The notes under the pieces were generated by a model, which was not told the origin of the DNA, searched no databases, and worked only from the letters and a program-made list of their open reading frames with translations. The translations under genes and the position numbers were made by a program. Of a stretch of DNA of 64,000 nucleotides, positions 2,992 through 10,595 are shown piece by piece. The stretch is from Stenotrophomonas raiganjensis (SeqCode). Lineage in GTDB: Bacteria > Pseudomonadota > Gammaproteobacteria > Xanthomonadales > Xanthomonadaceae. The stretch covers positions 1 to 64,000 of the forward strand of contig NZ_JAUTXR010000140.1 of NCBI RefSeq assembly GCF_030658505.1, written 5' to 3'. Every line of letters begins with the position of its first letter. Position 1 is the stretch's first letter.

Positions 2992-5900
2992 ATGGTTCGT
3001 TTCTTCATCGACCGGCCGATCTTCGCCTGGGTGATCGCCATCGCGGTCAGCCTGCTCGGCCTGCTCGCGATCCTGATCCTGCCGGTGGACCGCTACCCGC
3101 AGATCGCTCCCCCCACCATCACCATCCGCGCCACCTACACCGGCGCCTCCTCGCAGACCGTGGAAAACGCGGTCACCCAGGTCATCGAGCAGTCCCAGCA
3201 GAGCCTGGACCACCTGATGTACATGACCTCGACCAGTGCCTCCGATGGCTCGGCGCAGGTCAACCTGGTGTTCGCCACCGGTACCAACCCGGATACCGCG
3301 CAGGTGCAGGTGCAGAACCAGCTGCAGGCGGCGATGGCCACGCTACCGCAGGCGGTGCAGCAGAACGGCCTGACCATCACCAAGTCCAGTGGCTCGATCT
3401 TCGAGGTGCTGTCGTTCACCAGCGAAGACGGCAGCATGGACAACTTCGATGTCGCCAACTTCATGGAGGCGCGCATCGATGACCAGATCAGCCGCGTCAG
3501 TGGTGTCGGCAACATCCAGCCGATCGGCCAGGAATACGCCATGCGTATCTGGCTGGACCCGGAGAAGATGCGCCAGTACGCGCTGATGCCGTCGGACATC
3601 GAGACCGCACTGCAGGCACAGAACACCGACGTATCGGCTGGTGAGCTGGGTGGCCAGCCGGCGCTGAAGGGCCAGCAGCTGGACGCCACCGTCACCGCGC
3701 GCAGCCGCCTGCACACGCCCGAACAGTTCGCGCAGGTGGTGCTGAAGGCCGATGCCAACAGCAGCGTGGTGCACTTGGGCGACGTGGCGAAGATCGGCCT
3801 GGGTCCGGAGAGTTACGACAGCATCAGTACCTTCAACGGCAAGCCGTCGGCGTCGCTGGGCATCGAGCTCAATGCGGGCGCCAATGCCATCGCCGTGTCC
3901 AAGGCCATCGAGACCCGCCTGCAGCAGCTGCAGAAGTACTGGCCACACGGCTACACCTACCACGTGGCGTTCACCACCACGCCGTTCGTGACCATCTCGC
4001 TGAAGGAAGTGGTGATCACCCTGATCGAGGCGATCATCCTGGTGGTGCTGGTGATGTACCTGTTCCTGCAGAACTGGCGCGCCACGCTGATCCCGACCAT
4101 CGCGGTGCCGGTGGTGCTGCTGGGCACATTCGGCGTGCTGGCGGCCTTTGGCTATTCGATCAACACGCTGACCATGTTCGCACTGGTGCTGGCCATCGGC
4201 CTGCTGGTGGACGATGCCATCGTGGTGGTGGAGAACGTGGAGCGGGTGATGACCTTCGAAGGGCTGGCGCCGAAGCCGGCCACGCTGAAGGCGATGGGCC
4301 AGATCACCGGCGCGCTGGTCGGCATCGTGCTGGTGCTGACCGCGGTGTTCCTGCCGATGGCGTTCTTCAGCGGTGTCACCGGCGTGATCTATCGCCAGTT
4401 CTCGGTGACGATCGCCGCCGCGATGATCCTGTCGGTGCTGGTGGCGATGACCATCACCCCGGCGCTGTGCGGCAGCATCCTGCACCAGATTCCCAAGGGC
4501 GGCCATCCGCATGGTGACCACGGCGGTGAGCCGAGCCTGCTGGGCAAGTTCTTCATCTGGTTCAACCACCGTTTCGAGCGTACGTCCAACGGCCTGCGTC
4601 GTCGGGTGGATGGCTTCCTTGGCCGGCGCACGCTGGGCGTGGTGTTCTACCTGGTGCTGAGCGTGGCCACCGGCCTGCTGCTGTGGCACCTGCCGGGCGC
4701 GTTCCTGCCCGACGAGGACCAGGGCATGCTCAACGCGCTGGTGAAGCTGCCGGCCGGTTCCACCCTGGAGCAGACCCGCGCGGTGATGGATCGCCTGAGT
4801 GCCGCTGCGGTGAAGGACGACAGCGTGCTGTCGATCCAGGCTACCGCCGGTTTCAGCGTCACCGGCAGCGGCCAGAACGTCGGCCAGGCCTTCATTCGCC
4901 TGAAGGACTGGGATGATCGCAAGGATGACGCCGACACCATTGCCGCGCGGTTGACCGCGGCAATGGCCAGCGTGCCCGATGCGCAGGTGTTCATCACCTC
5001 GCCACCGGCCATCCTCGGCCTCGGCGATGCGGGGGGCTTCACCCTGGAACTGCAGGACGAAGGCGGTGCCGGCCATGCCGCCGCCGTGGCCGCGCGCAAC
5101 ACTCTGCTGGAGAAAGCCGCCAAGGACCCGAAGCTGGTCAACGTGCGCTACGCCAGCCTGGAAGACGCGCCGGTGTATGCGGTGAAGGTGGACGACGCCA
5201 AGGCGCAGGCGATGGGCGTGAACCCGCAGGACATCAATGACACCTTGAATGCGGCCTTGGGTGGCGACTTCGTCAACAACTTCATCTACAAGGGCCGCAT
5301 CAAGAAGGTGTTCATCCAGGGCACCGCCGAAGCACGCATGCAGCCGCAGGACATCGAGCGCTGGAGCGTGCGCAACCAGGCCGGGCAGATGGTGCCGCTG
5401 TCGTCGCTGATCAGCACGCACTGGTCCAGTGCGCCGGCCGCACTGCAGCGCTACAACGGCATCTCGGCGATGGAAATCACCGGCCAGCCGGCACCGGGCG
5501 TCAGCTCCGGCGAGGCGATGGCCGAGATCGCGCGGCTGGCCGACACGCTGCCGGAAGGTTTCAGCCATGCCTGGTCGGACATGGCCTACCAGGAACAGCT
5601 GTCGGGCAACCAGGCGCCGATGCTGTATGCCATCTCGCTGCTGTTCGTGTTCCTGTGCCTGGCGGCGCTGTATGAAAGCTGGGCGGTGCCGTTCGCGGTG
5701 ATGCTGGCGGTGCCGGTGGGCGTGTTCGGCGCGGTGCTGATGATGAACCTGCGTGGCCTCAACAACGACGTGTACTTCCAGGTCGGCCTGCTGACCACGA
5801 TTGGCCTGGCAGCAAAGAACGGCATCCTGATCGTCGAATTCGCGCGCATCCTCGAACAGCAGGGCAAGAGCACCCGCGAAGCGATCCTGCAGGCGGTCTA

Positions 5901-6141
5901 TCTGCGGCTGCGGCCGATCGTGATGACCTCGCTGGCGTTCCTGATGGGCGTGCTGCCGCTGGTGTTCGCCACCGGCGCCGGTTCGGCCGCGCGCCGTTCG
6001 CTGGGTACTGGCGTGGCCGGTGGTACGGTCGCCTCGATGGTGCTTGGCATGTTCTTCGTGCCGTTGTTCTACCTGCTGGTGCGCCGCATGTTCCCGGGCC
6101 GCGCGCCGGCCGACGCCACTGCCCCGGAGGCCAGCCCATGA
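2992..6141 (+). CDS. smeB: RND multidrug efflux pump SmeB
   Basis: Inner-membrane, proton-driven hydrophobe/amphiphile efflux pump of 1049 residues, the usual AcrB/MexB size. It opens with MVRFFIDRPIFAWVIAI, the hallmark HAE1 start. It has two large periplasmic loops and twelve membrane helices. Helix 4 carries LAIGLLVDDAIVVVENVER, with the adjacent Asp pair used in proton relay. The C-terminal half repeats the fold (VGLLTTIGLAAKNGILIVEFA). A small His/Gly-rich stretch, GGHPHGDHGGEP, sits in the cytoplasmic loop between the halves and is less conserved in the family. It works with SmeA and SmeC, and its stop overlaps smeC by four bases. Confidence 0.95.
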   Translation: MVRFFIDRPIFAWVIAIAVSLLGLLAILILPVDRYPQIAPPTITIRATYTGASSQTVENAVTQVIEQSQQSLDHLMYMTSTSASDGSAQVNLVFATGTNPDTAQVQVQNQLQAAMATLPQAVQQNGLTITKSSGSIFEVLSFTSEDGSMDNFDVANFMEARIDDQISRVSGVGNIQPIGQEYAMRIWLDPEKMRQYALMPSDIETALQAQNTDVSAGELGGQPALKGQQLDATVTARSRLHTPEQFAQVVLKADANSSVVHLGDVAKIGLGPESYDSISTFNGKPSASLGIELNAGANAIAVSKAIETRLQQLQKYWPHGYTYHVAFTTTPFVTISLKEVVITLIEAIILVVLVMYLFLQNWRATLIPTIAVPVVLLGTFGVLAAFGYSINTLTMFALVLAIGLLVDDAIVVVENVERVMTFEGLAPKPATLKAMGQITGALVGIVLVLTAVFLPMAFFSGVTGVIYRQFSVTIAAAMILSVLVAMTITPALCGSILHQIPKGGHPHGDHGGEPSLLGKFFIWFNHRFERTSNGLRRRVDGFLGRRTLGVVFYLVLSVATGLLLWHLPGAFLPDEDQGMLNALVKLPAGSTLEQTRAVMDRLSAAAVKDDSVLSIQATAGFSVTGSGQNVGQAFIRLKDWDDRKDDADTIAARLTAAMASVPDAQVFITSPPAILGLGDAGGFTLELQDEGGAGHAAAVAARNTLLEKAAKDPKLVNVRYASLEDAPVYAVKVDDAKAQAMGVNPQDINDTLNAALGGDFVNNFIYKGRIKKVFIQGTAEARMQPQDIERWSVRNQAGQMVPLSSLISTHWSSAPAALQRYNGISAMEITGQPAPGVSSGEAMAEIARLADTLPEGFSHAWSDMAYQEQLSGNQAPMLYAISLLFVFLCLAALYESWAVPFAVMLAVPVGVFGAVLMMNLRGLNNDVYFQVGLLTTIGLAAKNGILIVEFARILEQQGKSTREAILQAVYLRLRPIVMTSLAFLMGVLPLVFATGAGSAARRSLGTGVAGGTVASMVLGMFFVPLFYLLVRRMFPGRAPADATAPEASP

Positions 6142-7553
6142 AGCCGATGCTGCTGCGCGCCCTTGCGGCCGCAACGATGACCACCGTGCTGGGCGGCTGC
6201 GTGAGCATGGCGCCGCACTACCAGAGGCCCGAGGCCCCGGTGCGGGGGCAGTTCGGCAACGCGGCAACGGGCGAGGCTGATCCTGCGCTGGCGATGCCGG
6301 CTTGGCGCGAAGTCTTCCTCGAGCCACGCCTGCAGCAGGTGATCGCGCTGGCGCTGCAGAACAACCGCGACCTGCGCGTGGCCGTGCTGCAGGTGGAGAA
6401 GGAACGGGCGCAGTACCGTATCCAGCGTGCGGCGCTGCTGCCGTCGGTGGATGCCAGTGGCAGCGTCACCCGTTCGCGCGTGAGCGATGCCAACAGCGAG
6501 ACCGGTGCCACCCAGGTAACCGAATCCGATGCCGTGCAGGTGGGTATCAGCAGTTGGGAACTGGATCTGTTCGGACGCATCCGCAGCCTGAAGAACGAGG
6601 CCCTGCAGAACTGGCTGGCCAGCGCCGAGAACCAGCGCGCCGCGCGCACCAGCCTGGTGGCCGAAGTGGCCACGGCGTGGCTGGCGCTGGCGGCCGACGA
6701 GCAGTCGCTGGCGTTCACCCGGCAGACGCTGGACAGCCAGCAGCAGACCCTGCAGCGCACCGAGGCCCGCCATGCACAAGGCCTGGCTTCGGGCCTGGAC
6801 CTGTCGCAGGTGCAGGCCAGCGTGGACGCCGCGCGCGGTGCGCTGGCCAAGCTGCAGACCCAGCAGGCGCAGGATCGCGATGCGCTGCAGCTGCTGGTCG
6901 GTGCACCGCTGGACGCGGCACTGCTGCCCAGCGCACAGGCGCTGGACGGCACCGTGGCGCTGGCGCCGCTGCCCGCCAACCTGCCGTCCAGCGTGTTGTT
7001 GCAGCGCCCGGACGTGCTGTCCGCCGAACACGCGCTGCAGGCGGCCAACGCCGATATCGGTGCCGCGCGCGCCGCGTTCTTCCCGACGCTGACGTTGACC
7101 GCCAACTACGGCCACAGCTCCACCGCGTTGTCGACGCTGTTCTCGGCCGGCACCCGCGGCTGGTCGTTCGCCCCCAGCATCACCGCGCCGATCTTCCACG
7201 CCGGTGCGTTGAAGGCATCGCTGGATGCCTCGAAGATCGGCAAGGACATCGGCGTCGCGCAGTACGAGAAGGCGATCCAGCAGGCCTTCAGTGAAGTGGC
7301 CGATGCGCTGGCCACGCGTGATCACCTGACTGCGCAGATGGACGCACAGCGCGCGTTGGTCGCTGCCAGCCAGCGCAGCTACACGCTGGCCGATGCGCGT
7401 TACCGCACCGGGCTGGATGGCTATCTGCAGGCACTGGATGCACAGCGCAGCCTGTATGCCGCGCAGCAGGACCTGATTGCCCTGCAACAGCAGGACGCGG
7501 GCAACCGGGTGACGTTGTTCAAGGTGCTGGGCGGCGGTGCCGACGCACGCTAG
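6138..7553 (+). CDS. smeC: Outer-membrane efflux channel lipoprotein SmeC
   Basis: TolC/OprM-type channel of 471 residues completing the SmeABC tripartite pump. The lipoprotein signal ends TVLGGC followed by VSMAPHYQRPEAP, the typical NodT-family start. Two OEP repeats follow, with long helices rich in Ala, Gln and Leu (for example around residues 170-250 and 380-450), which form the periplasmic tunnel. Translation is coupled to smeB through an ATGA overlap. Published work reported that SmeC matters for resistance even independently of SmeAB; that is outside knowledge, not visible here. Confidence 0.93.
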   Translation: MKPMLLRALAAATMTTVLGGCVSMAPHYQRPEAPVRGQFGNAATGEADPALAMPAWREVFLEPRLQQVIALALQNNRDLRVAVLQVEKERAQYRIQRAALLPSVDASGSVTRSRVSDANSETGATQVTESDAVQVGISSWELDLFGRIRSLKNEALQNWLASAENQRAARTSLVAEVATAWLALAADEQSLAFTRQTLDSQQQTLQRTEARHAQGLASGLDLSQVQASVDAARGALAKLQTQQAQDRDALQLLVGAPLDAALLPSAQALDGTVALAPLPANLPSSVLLQRPDVLSAEHALQAANADIGAARAAFFPTLTLTANYGHSSTALSTLFSAGTRGWSFAPSITAPIFHAGALKASLDASKIGKDIGVAQYEKAIQQAFSEVADALATRDHLTAQMDAQRALVAASQRSYTLADARYRTGLDGYLQALDAQRSLYAAQQDLIALQQQDAGNRVTLFKVLGGGADAR

Positions 7554-7668: not shown

Positions 7669-9558
7669 TTACGCCACGCGGCCGCGGCGCGCGCGCTCCA
7701 GGTGGACCAGCAGCAGCGAGATCGCCGCCGGGGTCATGCCCGGGATGCGCTGCGCCTGGCCGATGGTCTGCGGGCGCACGCGCTCCAGCTTCTGCAGTGC
7801 TTCGGCCGACAGCCCGCGCACCGTCGCATAGTCGAATGCCTCGGCAATCGGCGTGGCCTCATGCCGCTGCTGGCGCTCGATCTCCTCGCGCTGGCGGTCC
7901 AGGTAGCCGGCGTACTTCACGCCGATCTCCACCTGCTCGGCCACCTTGGCGTCGGCCACGGCCGGGCCCAGCGACGGTACCTGCATCAGCTGCGCGTAAT
8001 CCAGTTCGGGGCGCTTGATCAGGTCCAGTACGTTGGTTTCGCGACTGACCACCACGCCCAGGGTGTCCTGCACCTCACGGCCCAGCGCATTGGCCGGGGT
8101 GGCCCACAGCGCGCCCAGGCGCGCGCGCTCGGCGGCGACCGCGGCCTGCTTGGTCTCGAACGCACTCCAGCGACGATCATCCACCAGGCCCATCTCGCGG
8201 CCGGTTGGCGTCAGGCGCTGGTCGGCATTGTCCTCGCGCAGCTGCAGGCGATACTCGGCGCGGCTGGTGAACATGCGGTACGGCTCGTTGGTGCCGTGGG
8301 TGATCAGGTCATCCACCAGCACGCCCAGGTAAGCCTCGTCGCGACGCGGGCACCAACCCTCCAGCCCGCGCACCTGGCGTGCAGCGTTGAGGCCGGCCAG
8401 CAGGCCCTGCGCGGCGGCCTCTTCATAGCCGGTGGTGCCGTTGATCTGGCCGGCGAAGAACAGGCCGTTGACCAGCTTGGTTTCCAGCGAGGCCTTCAGC
8501 CCGCGCGGATCGAAGAAGTCGTATTCGATCGCGTAGCCGGGGCGGGTGATGTGCGCGTTCCCGAAGCCACGGATGCTGCGCACCATCTCCAGCTGCACGT
8601 CGAACGGCAGCGAGGTCGAGATGCCGTTGGGGTAGATCTCGACGATGCCCAGGCCTTCGGGTTCGACGAAGATCTGGTGGCTGGCCTTCTCGGCGAAGCG
8701 CACCACCTTGTCCTCGATGGACGGGCAGTAGCGCGGGCCGATGCCCTCGATCTGGCCGCTGTACAGCGGCGAGCGGTGCAGGGCGTCGCGGATGATCTGG
8801 TGGGTCTGCTCGGTGGTGTGGGTGATCCAGCAGCTGACCTGCTGCGGATGCTCGTCCACCGAGCCGAGGAAGGACATGACCGGCCGCGGTGAATCGCCGG
8901 GCTGCTCGTCCATCACGCTGTAGTCCAGCGAGCGGCCGTCGATGCGCGGCGGCGTGCCGGTCTTCAGGCGGTCCACCTGGAACGGACGCTCACGCAGGCG
9001 CGCGGCCAGCGTGGTGGCCGGCGGATCGCCCATGCGGCCGGCGGCGTACTGGGTCGGGCCCACGTGGATCTTGCCGGCCAGGAAGGTGCCTGCGGTCAGC
9101 ACCACCGCCTGGGCGTCGAAACGCAGGCCGGTCTGGGTGATGACCCCGCGCACGGCGTCGCCTTCGATGACCAGGTCGTCGACGGCGGCCTGGAACACGG
9201 TCAGGTTGGCCTGGCCTTCGACGATGGCGCGGATTGCCATGCGGTACAGATTGCGGTCGGCCTGGCAGCGGGTGGCGCGCACGGCCGGGCCCTTGGAGGC
9301 GTTGAGCGTGCGCCACTGGATGCCGGCGCGGTCGGCGGCGTGCGCCATCGCACCGCCGAGGGCATCGATTTCCTTGACCAGGTGGCCCTTGCCGATGCCG
9401 CCGATGGCCGGGTTGCAGCTCATCGCGCCCACCGTCTCGATGTTGTGGGTCAGCAACAGGGTGCGCGCGCCGGTACGGGCCGCGGCCAGCGCGGCTTCGG
9501 TGCCGGCGTGGCCACCGCCGATGACGATGACGTCGTAACGATGGAAGGACGGGTTCAT
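7669..9558 (-). CDS. mnmG: tRNA uridine-5-carboxymethylaminomethyl modification enzyme MnmG (GidA)
   Basis: FAD-dependent cytoplasmic enzyme of 629 residues that, with MnmE, installs the cmnm5 group on wobble uridine 34 of several tRNAs. The start [19 protein letters not shown] is the Rossmann FAD site. [19 protein letters not shown] and the [11 protein letters not shown] motif are diagnostic of the family, and the [13 protein letters not shown] segment and C-terminal helical GidA-associated domain are intact. Full family length. It appears monocistronic here, with smeC converging on its 3' end. Confidence 0.97.
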
Positions 9559-9675
9559 GGGGGCTGTTCAGCTGGGGGCGGGCGCGGCCGGGGCGGCGCC
9601 GGGGTGGCGATTTTAGCGCCATTCGGGGGCTGGGGCGTCGGCACTGGCCGGACCGCGTTGAAATCAGCCCTAAAG

Positions 9676-9692
9676 TTGGCAGGATTTTTGCA
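9676..9692 (+). promoter_or_regulatory. Sigma54-type (-24/-12) promoter
   Basis: TTGGCAGGATTTTTGCA has the GG and GC dinucleotides exactly ten bases apart and fits the TTGGCAcg-N4-TTGCA consensus except at one position. Transcription would start near base 9703, pointing into a stretch with no coding sequence but with strong RNA structure and a terminator. No activator binding site was identified. Confidence 0.6.
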
Positions 9693-9702
9693 GATAACCC
9701 AA

Positions 9703-9822
9703 TAGCACCCACCGTGGCTGGCGCCGCAGGCGCCCGTGACCGGAATTGGAACAGGGGCCGGTACAGGCGCACGGTGGGGGAGCAGAGGGCCGGCAGTCGG
9801 GGGACTGCCCGGCCCTGTTTTT
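9703..9822 (+). ncRNA. Candidate structured small RNA with GGA motifs
   Basis: A segment of about 120 bases between the sigma54-type promoter and an intrinsic terminator, with no convincing reading frame. Visible helices are: a closing stem 9708-9716 with 9770-9778 (nine pairs); GGCGCC 9720-9725 with 9729-9734 around a GCA loop; ACCGG 9739-9743 with CCGGT 9758-9762; and the terminator hairpin. GGA occurs at 9742, 9748, 9779 and 9802. Three of the four fall in predicted loops or linkers, the pattern seen in RNAs that titrate CsrA/RsmA. The RNA, its ends and that role are inferred from sequence only. Confidence 0.5.
9786..9822 (+). terminator. Intrinsic terminator of the small RNA candidate
   Basis: AGGGCCGGCAG (9786-9796) pairs with CTGCCCGGCCCT (9805-9816) with one bulged C. 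The loop is eight bases and five T residues follow (9818-9822). It points along the plus strand. Confidence 0.8.
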
Positions 9823-9846
9823 CTGGGGCAATCGGTGAGGCCCCAG

Positions 9847-9868
9847 CCACGCCTGGCGTGGATCTACC
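9847..9868 (-). repeat. SMAG-like hairpin
   Basis: CCACGCC/GGCGTGG arms (9847-9853, 9855-9861) around a single base, with CTAC at 9864-9867, that is GTAG heading the element on the minus strand. Confidence 0.6.
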
Positions 9869-9904
9869 GGCGCTGGGGTTCTCGCCGGTTGGCGACCTCG
9901 TTCA

Positions 9905-10067
9905 AAAACAAACGGCCCCGCATTGCGGGGCCGTCTGCTTTCAGAGGTGCCGACATCCGACAGGGCCGGAACAGGGGGGATCCAGATGTTCCTGTCGGAT
10001 ATCGACGTAGAGCTTTTTGCGGCGGCCGGTGTCGTTTTTGTCACATTGTGACGCGGGCCGTCACTGG
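9905..10067 (-). ncRNA. Possible minus-strand transcript with a long hairpin
   Basis: Upstream of the minus-strand terminator, 9951-9964 and 9991-10004 form a 14-base inverted repeat. Its only mismatch would be a G-U pair in minus-strand RNA, so the structure suits that strand. A weak promoter (TTGCAT 10103-10098, CAATCT 10079-10074) could start it near 10067. A GTG-started frame crosses the region but runs through the terminator hairpin and resembles no family. It could instead be the 3' leader of the lipoprotein transcript. Weakly supported. Confidence 0.25.
9912..9934 (-). terminator. Intrinsic terminator facing the small RNA
   Basis: ACGGCCCCGC (9912-9921) and GCGGGGCCGT (9925-9934) form a perfect ten-pair stem with an ATT loop. 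On the minus strand it is followed by TTTGTTTTTG, so it ends transcription coming from higher coordinates. It faces the terminator at 9786-9822. Confidence 0.75.
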
Positions 10068-10109
10068 CCCCGTAGATTGAGGCTTGAACCGTGTGAAATG
10101 CAAGACGGT

Positions 10110-10595
10110 TCAGCGCTCAACTGTGCGCTGCGTCGCACGATCCATGTTGCGCCAAGGGGAACCGTTCATTCTCGGCGCGCTGGGGGCCGGTGCTGGACGG
10201 GCCTGCGGCGGAGGTGCCGGCGGCTGCATGTTCGACTGTGGCGGGCGACGCATCGAGTCCATGTTCCGCCACGGCGACCCCCCGTTGTACGACGGGCGCG
10301 AGGGCGGCGGCGGGCGGTTCTCGCCGCCATTGCCCGGGCGCGGCGGCGGGCGGTGGTTGTGCGGCGGACGGTAGATCGGGCGCGAGTAGTACGGGTTGCC
10401 ATAGCCGCCGTAATAGCCGCCATAGCCACCGTAGTAAGGGCCATAGTTGTAGGGATAGCCGGCCGGGTAGCGGTACTCCACCGACGGCGCACCGTGGTAG
10501 TAACCGCCGCTGCGACCCCCGCCGACATAGTCGTAGGTGGTACAGCCGGTCAGGGCCAGCAGCAGGCCACCGGCAAGCATCAGGCGCGTTTTCAT
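10110..10595 (-). CDS. Low-complexity Gly/Tyr/Pro-rich lipoprotein, function unknown
   Basis: Predicted lipoprotein of 161 residues. The signal ends LLLALTGC, giving a lipidated Cys18 followed by TTYDYVGGG. The mature protein has a Gly/Tyr segment (YGGYGGYYGGYGNPYY), then a Pro/Arg/Asn segment, and contains the octapeptide GSPWRNMD twice near the C-terminus. No catalytic motif is visible and it is probably disordered. The ATG directly starts the signal peptide. An inverted repeat (10085-10092 / 10105-10112) overlaps the stop codon and may help end the message. It is flanked by a non-coding region and a divergent dehydratase gene. Confidence 0.75.
   Translation of the reverse strand: MKTRLMLAGGLLLALTGCTTYDYVGGGRSGGYYHGAPSVEYRYPAGYPYNYGPYYGGYGGYYGGYGNPYYSRPIYRPPHNHRPPPRPGNGGENRPPPPSRPSYNGGSPWRNMDSMRRPPQSNMQPPAPPPQARPAPAPSAPRMNGSPWRNMDRATQRTVER

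Follow-up and report, generated by a model that had tools for sequence, protein, structure and literature searches.

Upstream of mnmG in the Xanthomonadaceae, a small RNA of the asX1 family stands behind a conserved sigma54-type promoter and converges on a second, unannotated hairpin, here called X, whose loop is complementary to the apical loop of asX1. We propose that the two may form a two-RNA switch, in which asX1, controlled by sigma54 and possibly by the PilS-PilR system, silences X by loop-loop pairing; we give this complete reading a probability of about 0.3. X is a new candidate RNA and is predicted to be a separate transcript. The original prediction for this region, a sigma54-type promoter followed by a structured RNA, has stood, whereas its statements that the RNA fits no known family and resembles RNAs that sequester RsmA/CsrA have not, and hairpin X had gone unmentioned. 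The features concerned, all in the window (the whole 64 kb stretch of DNA that was analysed), are the following.

7669..9558, minus strand: mnmG, divergent neighbour of asX1 (from the ORF list; divergent in 198 of 203 loci)
9676..9692, plus strand: sigma54-type -24/-12 promoter element of asX1, TTGGCAGGATTTTTGCA (from the sequence and its conservation across loci)
9706..9822, plus strand: asX1 small RNA, Rfam RF02235 (family score and covariation)
9748..9757, plus strand: apical-loop motif of asX1, GGAACAGGGG, complementary to the X loop
9788..9822, plus strand: terminator hairpin of asX1 with a GGGG loop (9796-9805 reads GTCGGGGGAC) and a T tract
9903..9934, minus strand: predicted terminator of X, a 10-pair GC-rich hairpin followed by a T tract
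9949..10006, minus strand: hairpin of X, a candidate RNA that converges on asX1 (evidence from alignment A2, covariation and G-U asymmetry)
9968..9983, minus strand: 16-nt core of X, GGATCCCCCCTGTTCC
10073..10103, minus strand: tentative promoter-like pair upstream of X, TTGCAT / CAATCTA (conservation)

The asX1 RNA and its sigma54-type promoter

The RNA at 9706-9822 belongs to asX1. The RF02235 model matches along its full length (1-115) and scores 92.3 bits, above its gathering score of 70, so the claim of novelty fails and a new RNA family is ruled out for this segment; the claim of a promoter is separate from it. The fold predicted for 9676-9822 (-70.7 kcal/mol, z -2.44, with 3 of 200 shuffles equally good) has a long closing stem, inner hairpins and a terminator hairpin followed by T's. 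Covariation of the helices in relatives, which the original prediction had put forward as a check, is evident in alignment A1, made of 54 diverse sequences from 59 loci after eight very diverged loci had been excluded beforehand: both sides changed in 22 of 28 pairs, a result equalled by none of 500 shuffles, and 94.8% of the cells are paired, against 35.5-46.9% in slid versions. On the RNA's own strand there are 106 G-U cells vs 19 A-C cells. The covariation shows that asX1 is built from a stem that closes it, an apical hairpin and a terminator hairpin, and it speaks for an RNA at 9676-9822, a segment overlapped by ORFs of at least 60 aa in the mechanical ORF list. Conservation in unpaired positions is seen in the apical GGAACAGGG(G), whose G's have a mean unpaired probability of 0.60, and in the GGGG of the terminator loop, where it is 0.84. 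By script this GGGG was found in 120 of 136 distinct RNAs and in 0 of 38 other terminators; the remaining 16 comprise 11 scored as lacking GGGG and five scored as lacking the hairpin, although by eye at least seven of them do have GGGG.

The -24/-12 element at 9676-9691 reads TTGGCAGG-N5-TGC and is the sole exact match to TTGGCANGNNNNNTGC in the window; the asX1 model starts at 9706, 15 nt past the C of the -12 GC. When one mismatch is allowed, TTGGCANGNNNNNTGC has 7 matches in the 64 kb vs 10.25 expected by chance, so a single site is weak proof of a promoter and the argument depends on conservation. We placed asX1 in 203 loci and inspected the 60 nt upstream, requiring GG-N10-GC and at least five of seven further consensus positions. 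The element was present in 202 of the 203 loci, with all seven positions in 165, six in 36 and five in one, and in 195 of the 202 the asX1 model begins 14-16 nt after the -12 C. The lone exception, L133 from a metagenome-assembled genome, has a GG-GC spacing one base shorter. The promoter-bearing loci amount to 153 distinct sequences, in which the unforced positions are nearly invariant (T before GG in 153, C in 152, A in 151, G in 152 and T before GC in 153), and no column from 9 to 30 positions ahead of the element exceeds 0.39 bits. As a control, 18,606 random windows from the same loci contained at least six of the seven positions in 58 cases and all seven in 10. The element also precedes asX1 in 18 of 18 further loci when a looser pattern is used. 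A simple scan of 8500-10500 gave no sigma70 sites, and a sigma70 promoter for asX1 was dropped. This conservation makes it very probable that asX1 is transcribed from a sigma54 promoter, and the predicted sigma54-type promoter ahead of a structured, terminated RNA is thus upheld by the 202 loci, by the covarying helices and by its conservation across the Xanthomonadaceae. Loci of the Xanthomonas type also share a conserved block, TCACA(T/A), some 30 nt upstream of the -24 element, which S. maltophilia-type loci lack, and no common activator site upstream of asX1 was recognised across the two groups compared.

A search of relatives found asX1 in 23 of 41 genomes, all of them among the 25 from the genus of the window; the 16 from other families of the order had none. 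Across the family, asX1 was found in 266 of the 297 genomes, which represent 46 of its 54 genera. An asX1-like RNA lies behind a sigma54 element in a genome scored as asX1-negative (L335), and another lies behind TTGGCACGGATACTGC in a locus from another family of the order (L305), so asX1 scores miss diverged copies and the class "without asX1" is leaky. The 203 loci were chosen by asX1 score or by an exact 18-base core and are therefore a non-random sample, which includes repeats of the same species from two collections. Eight pattern matches that are not asX1 (L070, L097, L106, L110, L119, L124, L145 and L155) were dropped, and L162 is sX13. The totals of distinct RNAs vary with the stretch compared (136, 141 and 153 for asX1; 143 and 160 for X). 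Two inverted asX1 copies are found near the contig start in L094 (positions 18 and 581) and also in contig C97 of G115, possibly as an assembly artefact. Stenotrophomonas-type asX1 loci also occur in entries titled Bacillus subtilis and Rickettsia (L064 and L122), probably through contamination or a wrong label. Elsewhere in the window, at 2992-7553, the translations of the ORFs resemble an RND-type efflux transporter and an outer-membrane factor.

The discovery paper of asX1 is reportedly Schmidtke 2012. The available passages of later papers report that asX1 is expressed in X. campestris pv. raphani (PMC4652430) and that its level in Xylella cells is low (PMC12189769); the term rpoN is absent from both papers, and sigma54 from PMC4652430. 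The original description aside, no mention of a sigma54 promoter was met in the passages available from the asX1 literature, and these passages state no function for the RNA. A literature search for asX1 with Stenotrophomonas found nothing, and one for mnmG or gidA with Xanthomonas sRNA found nothing related, as judged by title.

A convergent hairpin with a complementary loop

X forms a second conserved block downstream of asX1, on the opposite strand, which is the strand of mnmG, and upstream of that gene. Over X, both in the window and in 16 related loci, all Rfam families stay below their gathering scores, and the segment 9900-10110 has sub-threshold matches only. In alignment A2, which holds 51 of 62 loci (10 diverged loci and one near-duplicate were left out), the 16-nt loop is invariant and both sides changed in 16 of 20 stem pairs, with 0 of 500 shuffles equal. 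The window copy of X with its terminator folds with z -8.12, matched by 0 of 200 shuffles. The alignment of the minus strand holds 122 G-U cells vs 20 A-C cells, and this excess points to the minus strand as the functional strand of X. The loop sequence GGAUCCCCCCUGUUCC is exact in 180 of 193 loci and varies in 13, and the exact 16-mer occurs once each in 116 of the order's 398 genomes searched, including two from outside the family (0 for the reversed control). A minus-strand terminator was detected in 83 of 143 distinct loci and a plus-strand one in 52, counts that depend on the script and become 70 and 38 under stricter rules. The possibility that X is the tail of a lipoprotein-like gene (10110-10595) is unlikely, as the protein was seen in 24 of the 203 loci, many of which are short there.

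X accompanies asX1 in all 195 readable loci, 193 of them by pattern together with L133, whose X carries extra G's, and L194; the other eight of the 203 loci end too early for X to be read. X is also found without asX1, in L336, where it adjoins mnmG. In L194 (genome G042), with asX1 at C14:688370-688481 and the X core at 688202-688217, asX1 is inverted with respect to both X and mnmG; this shows the two RNAs to be separable units. Two genomes from another family of the order (L305 and L306) have X with mnmG adjacent, outside the Xanthomonadaceae. Given the asX1-like RNA behind a sigma54 element in L305, the asX1/X pair may be older than the Rfam family implies.

Within the X loop lies CCCCUGUUCC, which complements the asX1 motif exactly. 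We compared the apical stretch of asX1 (32 nt) with the X loop in 97 distinct pairs and found the complementarity kept in all 97, with at least nine contiguous pairs including G-U. The longest Watson-Crick run was at least 10 in 74 pairs, 9 in 19 and 5-6 in four; these four have A-to-G changes in asX1 and reach a run of 11 once G-U is counted. Shuffling the X loop produced a run of at least 10 in 33 of 20,000 trials. In L185 the GGA is lost and nine pairs are kept in a shifted register. Compensatory changes on both RNAs were found in none of the 97 pairs because the X loop hardly varies, and this limits the claim of pairing. These data indicate that asX1 and X have the conserved complementarity in exposed loops by which a small RNA antagonist would be recognised. 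X is also more conserved than the pairing requires and persists without asX1, so it must have another role.

A possible two-RNA switch and its rivals

In the mechanism that we propose, sigma54, probably together with PilR, would turn asX1 on, and its apical GGAACAGGGG would then bind the complementary loop of X, loop to loop, and block it. Free X, with a C-rich loop like the loops of sX13, would act on G-rich start regions of mRNAs. On the complementarity described above we lean towards pairing with X as the way in which asX1 works, and we hold the odds to be about even that sigma54 control and a functional asX1-X pairing both apply, the activator left aside. That asX1 antagonises X when the sigma54 signal is on is a more tentative suggestion, made because asX1 occurs with X wherever X could be read, X can stand alone and C-rich loops of the sX13 type hit G-rich sites. 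If this switch is real, a surface or pilus signal would be coupled through it to the translation of mRNAs with G-rich start regions, and X would be the older member of the pair. The role of asX1 can now be tested with few mutants, since the RNA has a family-wide promoter class, a nominated activator and a specific partner, and X adds a strongly conserved RNA outside Rfam in a family that includes crop pathogens, opportunists and biocontrol species.

The most likely candidate for the activator is PilR of the PilS-PilR system, which we rate slightly short of an even chance. The genome G000 encodes sigma54 (PF04552) and has six PF00158 matches above 200 bits, and in G089 (99% complete, 90 contigs) PilR is the only one of five PF00158 matches to exceed 100 bits. 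In G000 and G103, the relatives of the G089 activator have a histidine kinase and a PilB-type ATPase as neighbours and a pilin gene no more than 8 kb away, and in G170 the adjoining kinase has a PilS-like membrane domain just under the cut-off (26.3 vs 27 bits). The pilin genes of G000, G103 and G057 share the promoter motif of asX1, and pilA of Xanthomonas oryzae is controlled by PilRX with RpoN2, according to the available part of PMC8657755. An inverted repeat, TTGGCACGG...CCGTGCCAA, lies just upstream of the pilin sigma54 element of the window's genome (L283, about 7860-7900, minus strand) and is possibly an activator site. PilR was matched in 281 of 297 genomes at the cut-off used here, so its presence discriminates little. 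By hand count, a PilR match better than E 1e-110 is lacking in 16 of the 297, two of them doubtful (G086 and G138); among the other 14, seven carry asX1, each at most 93% complete, and seven were scored without it. NtrC as the sole activator is unlikely: of the genomes with a completeness of 95% or more, 14 have no NtrC match as strong as E 1e-110 (hand count), and 10 of these carry asX1, all ten with the sigma54 element. The presence of rpoN, in 293 of 297 genomes, is uninformative as a test.

The main rival to the switch, which we regard as unlikely, takes X for a 5' leader hairpin of mnmG and asX1 for a cis-antisense RNA that tunes this gene. It would account for the position of X upstream of mnmG and on its strand, which recurs in L305, L306 and L336, for the closeness of the L336 hairpin to the start of mnmG and, if we interpret it rightly, for the name asX1, which suggests an antisense RNA. 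It agrees poorly with the strong terminator between X and mnmG in the window and with the frequency of minus-strand terminators across the distinct loci given above. Moreover, 106 of 164 distinct loci, vs 23 after shuffling, have a TANNAT -10-like site on mnmG's strand in the interval from asX1 to mnmG, and in G042 asX1 is flipped and the position of X is unchanged. Only marginally less probable is that asX1 acts as a decoy for the abundant sX13, its G-rich loops mimicking the 4G motifs of sX13-sensitive mRNAs, many of them for type IV pili. According to the available part of PMC3771888, 4G motifs accompany repression by sX13, and the repressed genes include type IV pilus genes; all 60 genomes tested have an sX13 match, the loops taken in isolation form duplexes of -8 to -13 kcal/mol, and none of the other terminators compared shares the GGGG of the asX1 terminator loop. 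The apical stretch of asX1 gives Watson-Crick runs of 6, 4 and 6 with the three sX13 loops, however, whereas X gives 10, and G-rich/C-rich matches of such length are cheap. Pairing of the full-length asX1 with sX13 was rejected, since 72 of 300 shuffles were as good.

It is less probable again that asX1 and X are independent, asX1 pairing with mRNAs or another RNA and the shared motif reflecting a common third partner. Both asX1 and the plus strand of X carry GGAACAGGGG, and the conservation of X beyond the need of pairing, together with its occurrence without asX1, would fit such a partner; the G-U asymmetry (122 vs 20), however, puts the X RNA on the strand complementary to the asX1 motif, and in readable loci asX1 always occurs with X. 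A role of asX1 in sequestering CsrA/RsmA, as the original prediction had suggested from its GGA motifs, is very improbable. The four GGA are indeed present (9742, 9748, 9779 and 9802, with a fifth inside the promoter at 9682), and one lies in the apical loop. CsrA and RsmA prefer the context A(N)GGA, and none of the four in the window's asX1 has it; anywhere past nt 20, A(N)GGA occurs in 29 of 141 distinct asX1 RNAs. The four GGA are kept unevenly, in 116, 135, 100 and 128 of the 141, and in 6 of 136 distinct RNAs the loop GGA is lost and ACAGGG is kept. The several exposed A(N)GGA sites by which a CsrA/RsmA-sequestering RNA would be recognised are thus lacking in the window's asX1, and neither the context nor the conservation of the GGA supports a sponge role. 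RsmU, another RNA from Xanthomonas, also has four GGA and still bound RsmA after all four had been changed (available part of PMC7694677), which makes the number of GGA a poor criterion in both directions.

Comparison with known systems

By its family score the RNA of the window is a member of asX1 (RF02235) and the RNA itself is no different; relative to the available passages of the asX1 literature, the original description (Schmidtke 2012) aside, what is added is the sigma54 promoter and the partner X. Other small RNAs that depend on sigma54 include GlmY/GlmZ, Qrr and NrsZ. CrcZ and CrcY of Pseudomonas, which are also sigma54-dependent, have the -24/-12 promoter in common with asX1 and antagonise Hfq-Crc, according to the available part of PMC8657755; asX1 differs from them in its convergent neighbour X, whose loop is complementary to that of asX1. 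X resembles sX13 (RF02232) in its C-rich loop, and the C-rich loops of sX13 act on G-rich sites near the start codons of mRNAs, as described in the available part of PMC3771888. Unlike sX13, X has one long covarying stem, and the sX13 family stays below its gathering score over X. Three genomes (G042, G044 and G062) have two sX13 matches each. As regards paired RNAs, CJnc180 of Campylobacter is a perfect antisense to CJnc190, whereas asX1 and X are convergent and share about 10 complementary loop bases.
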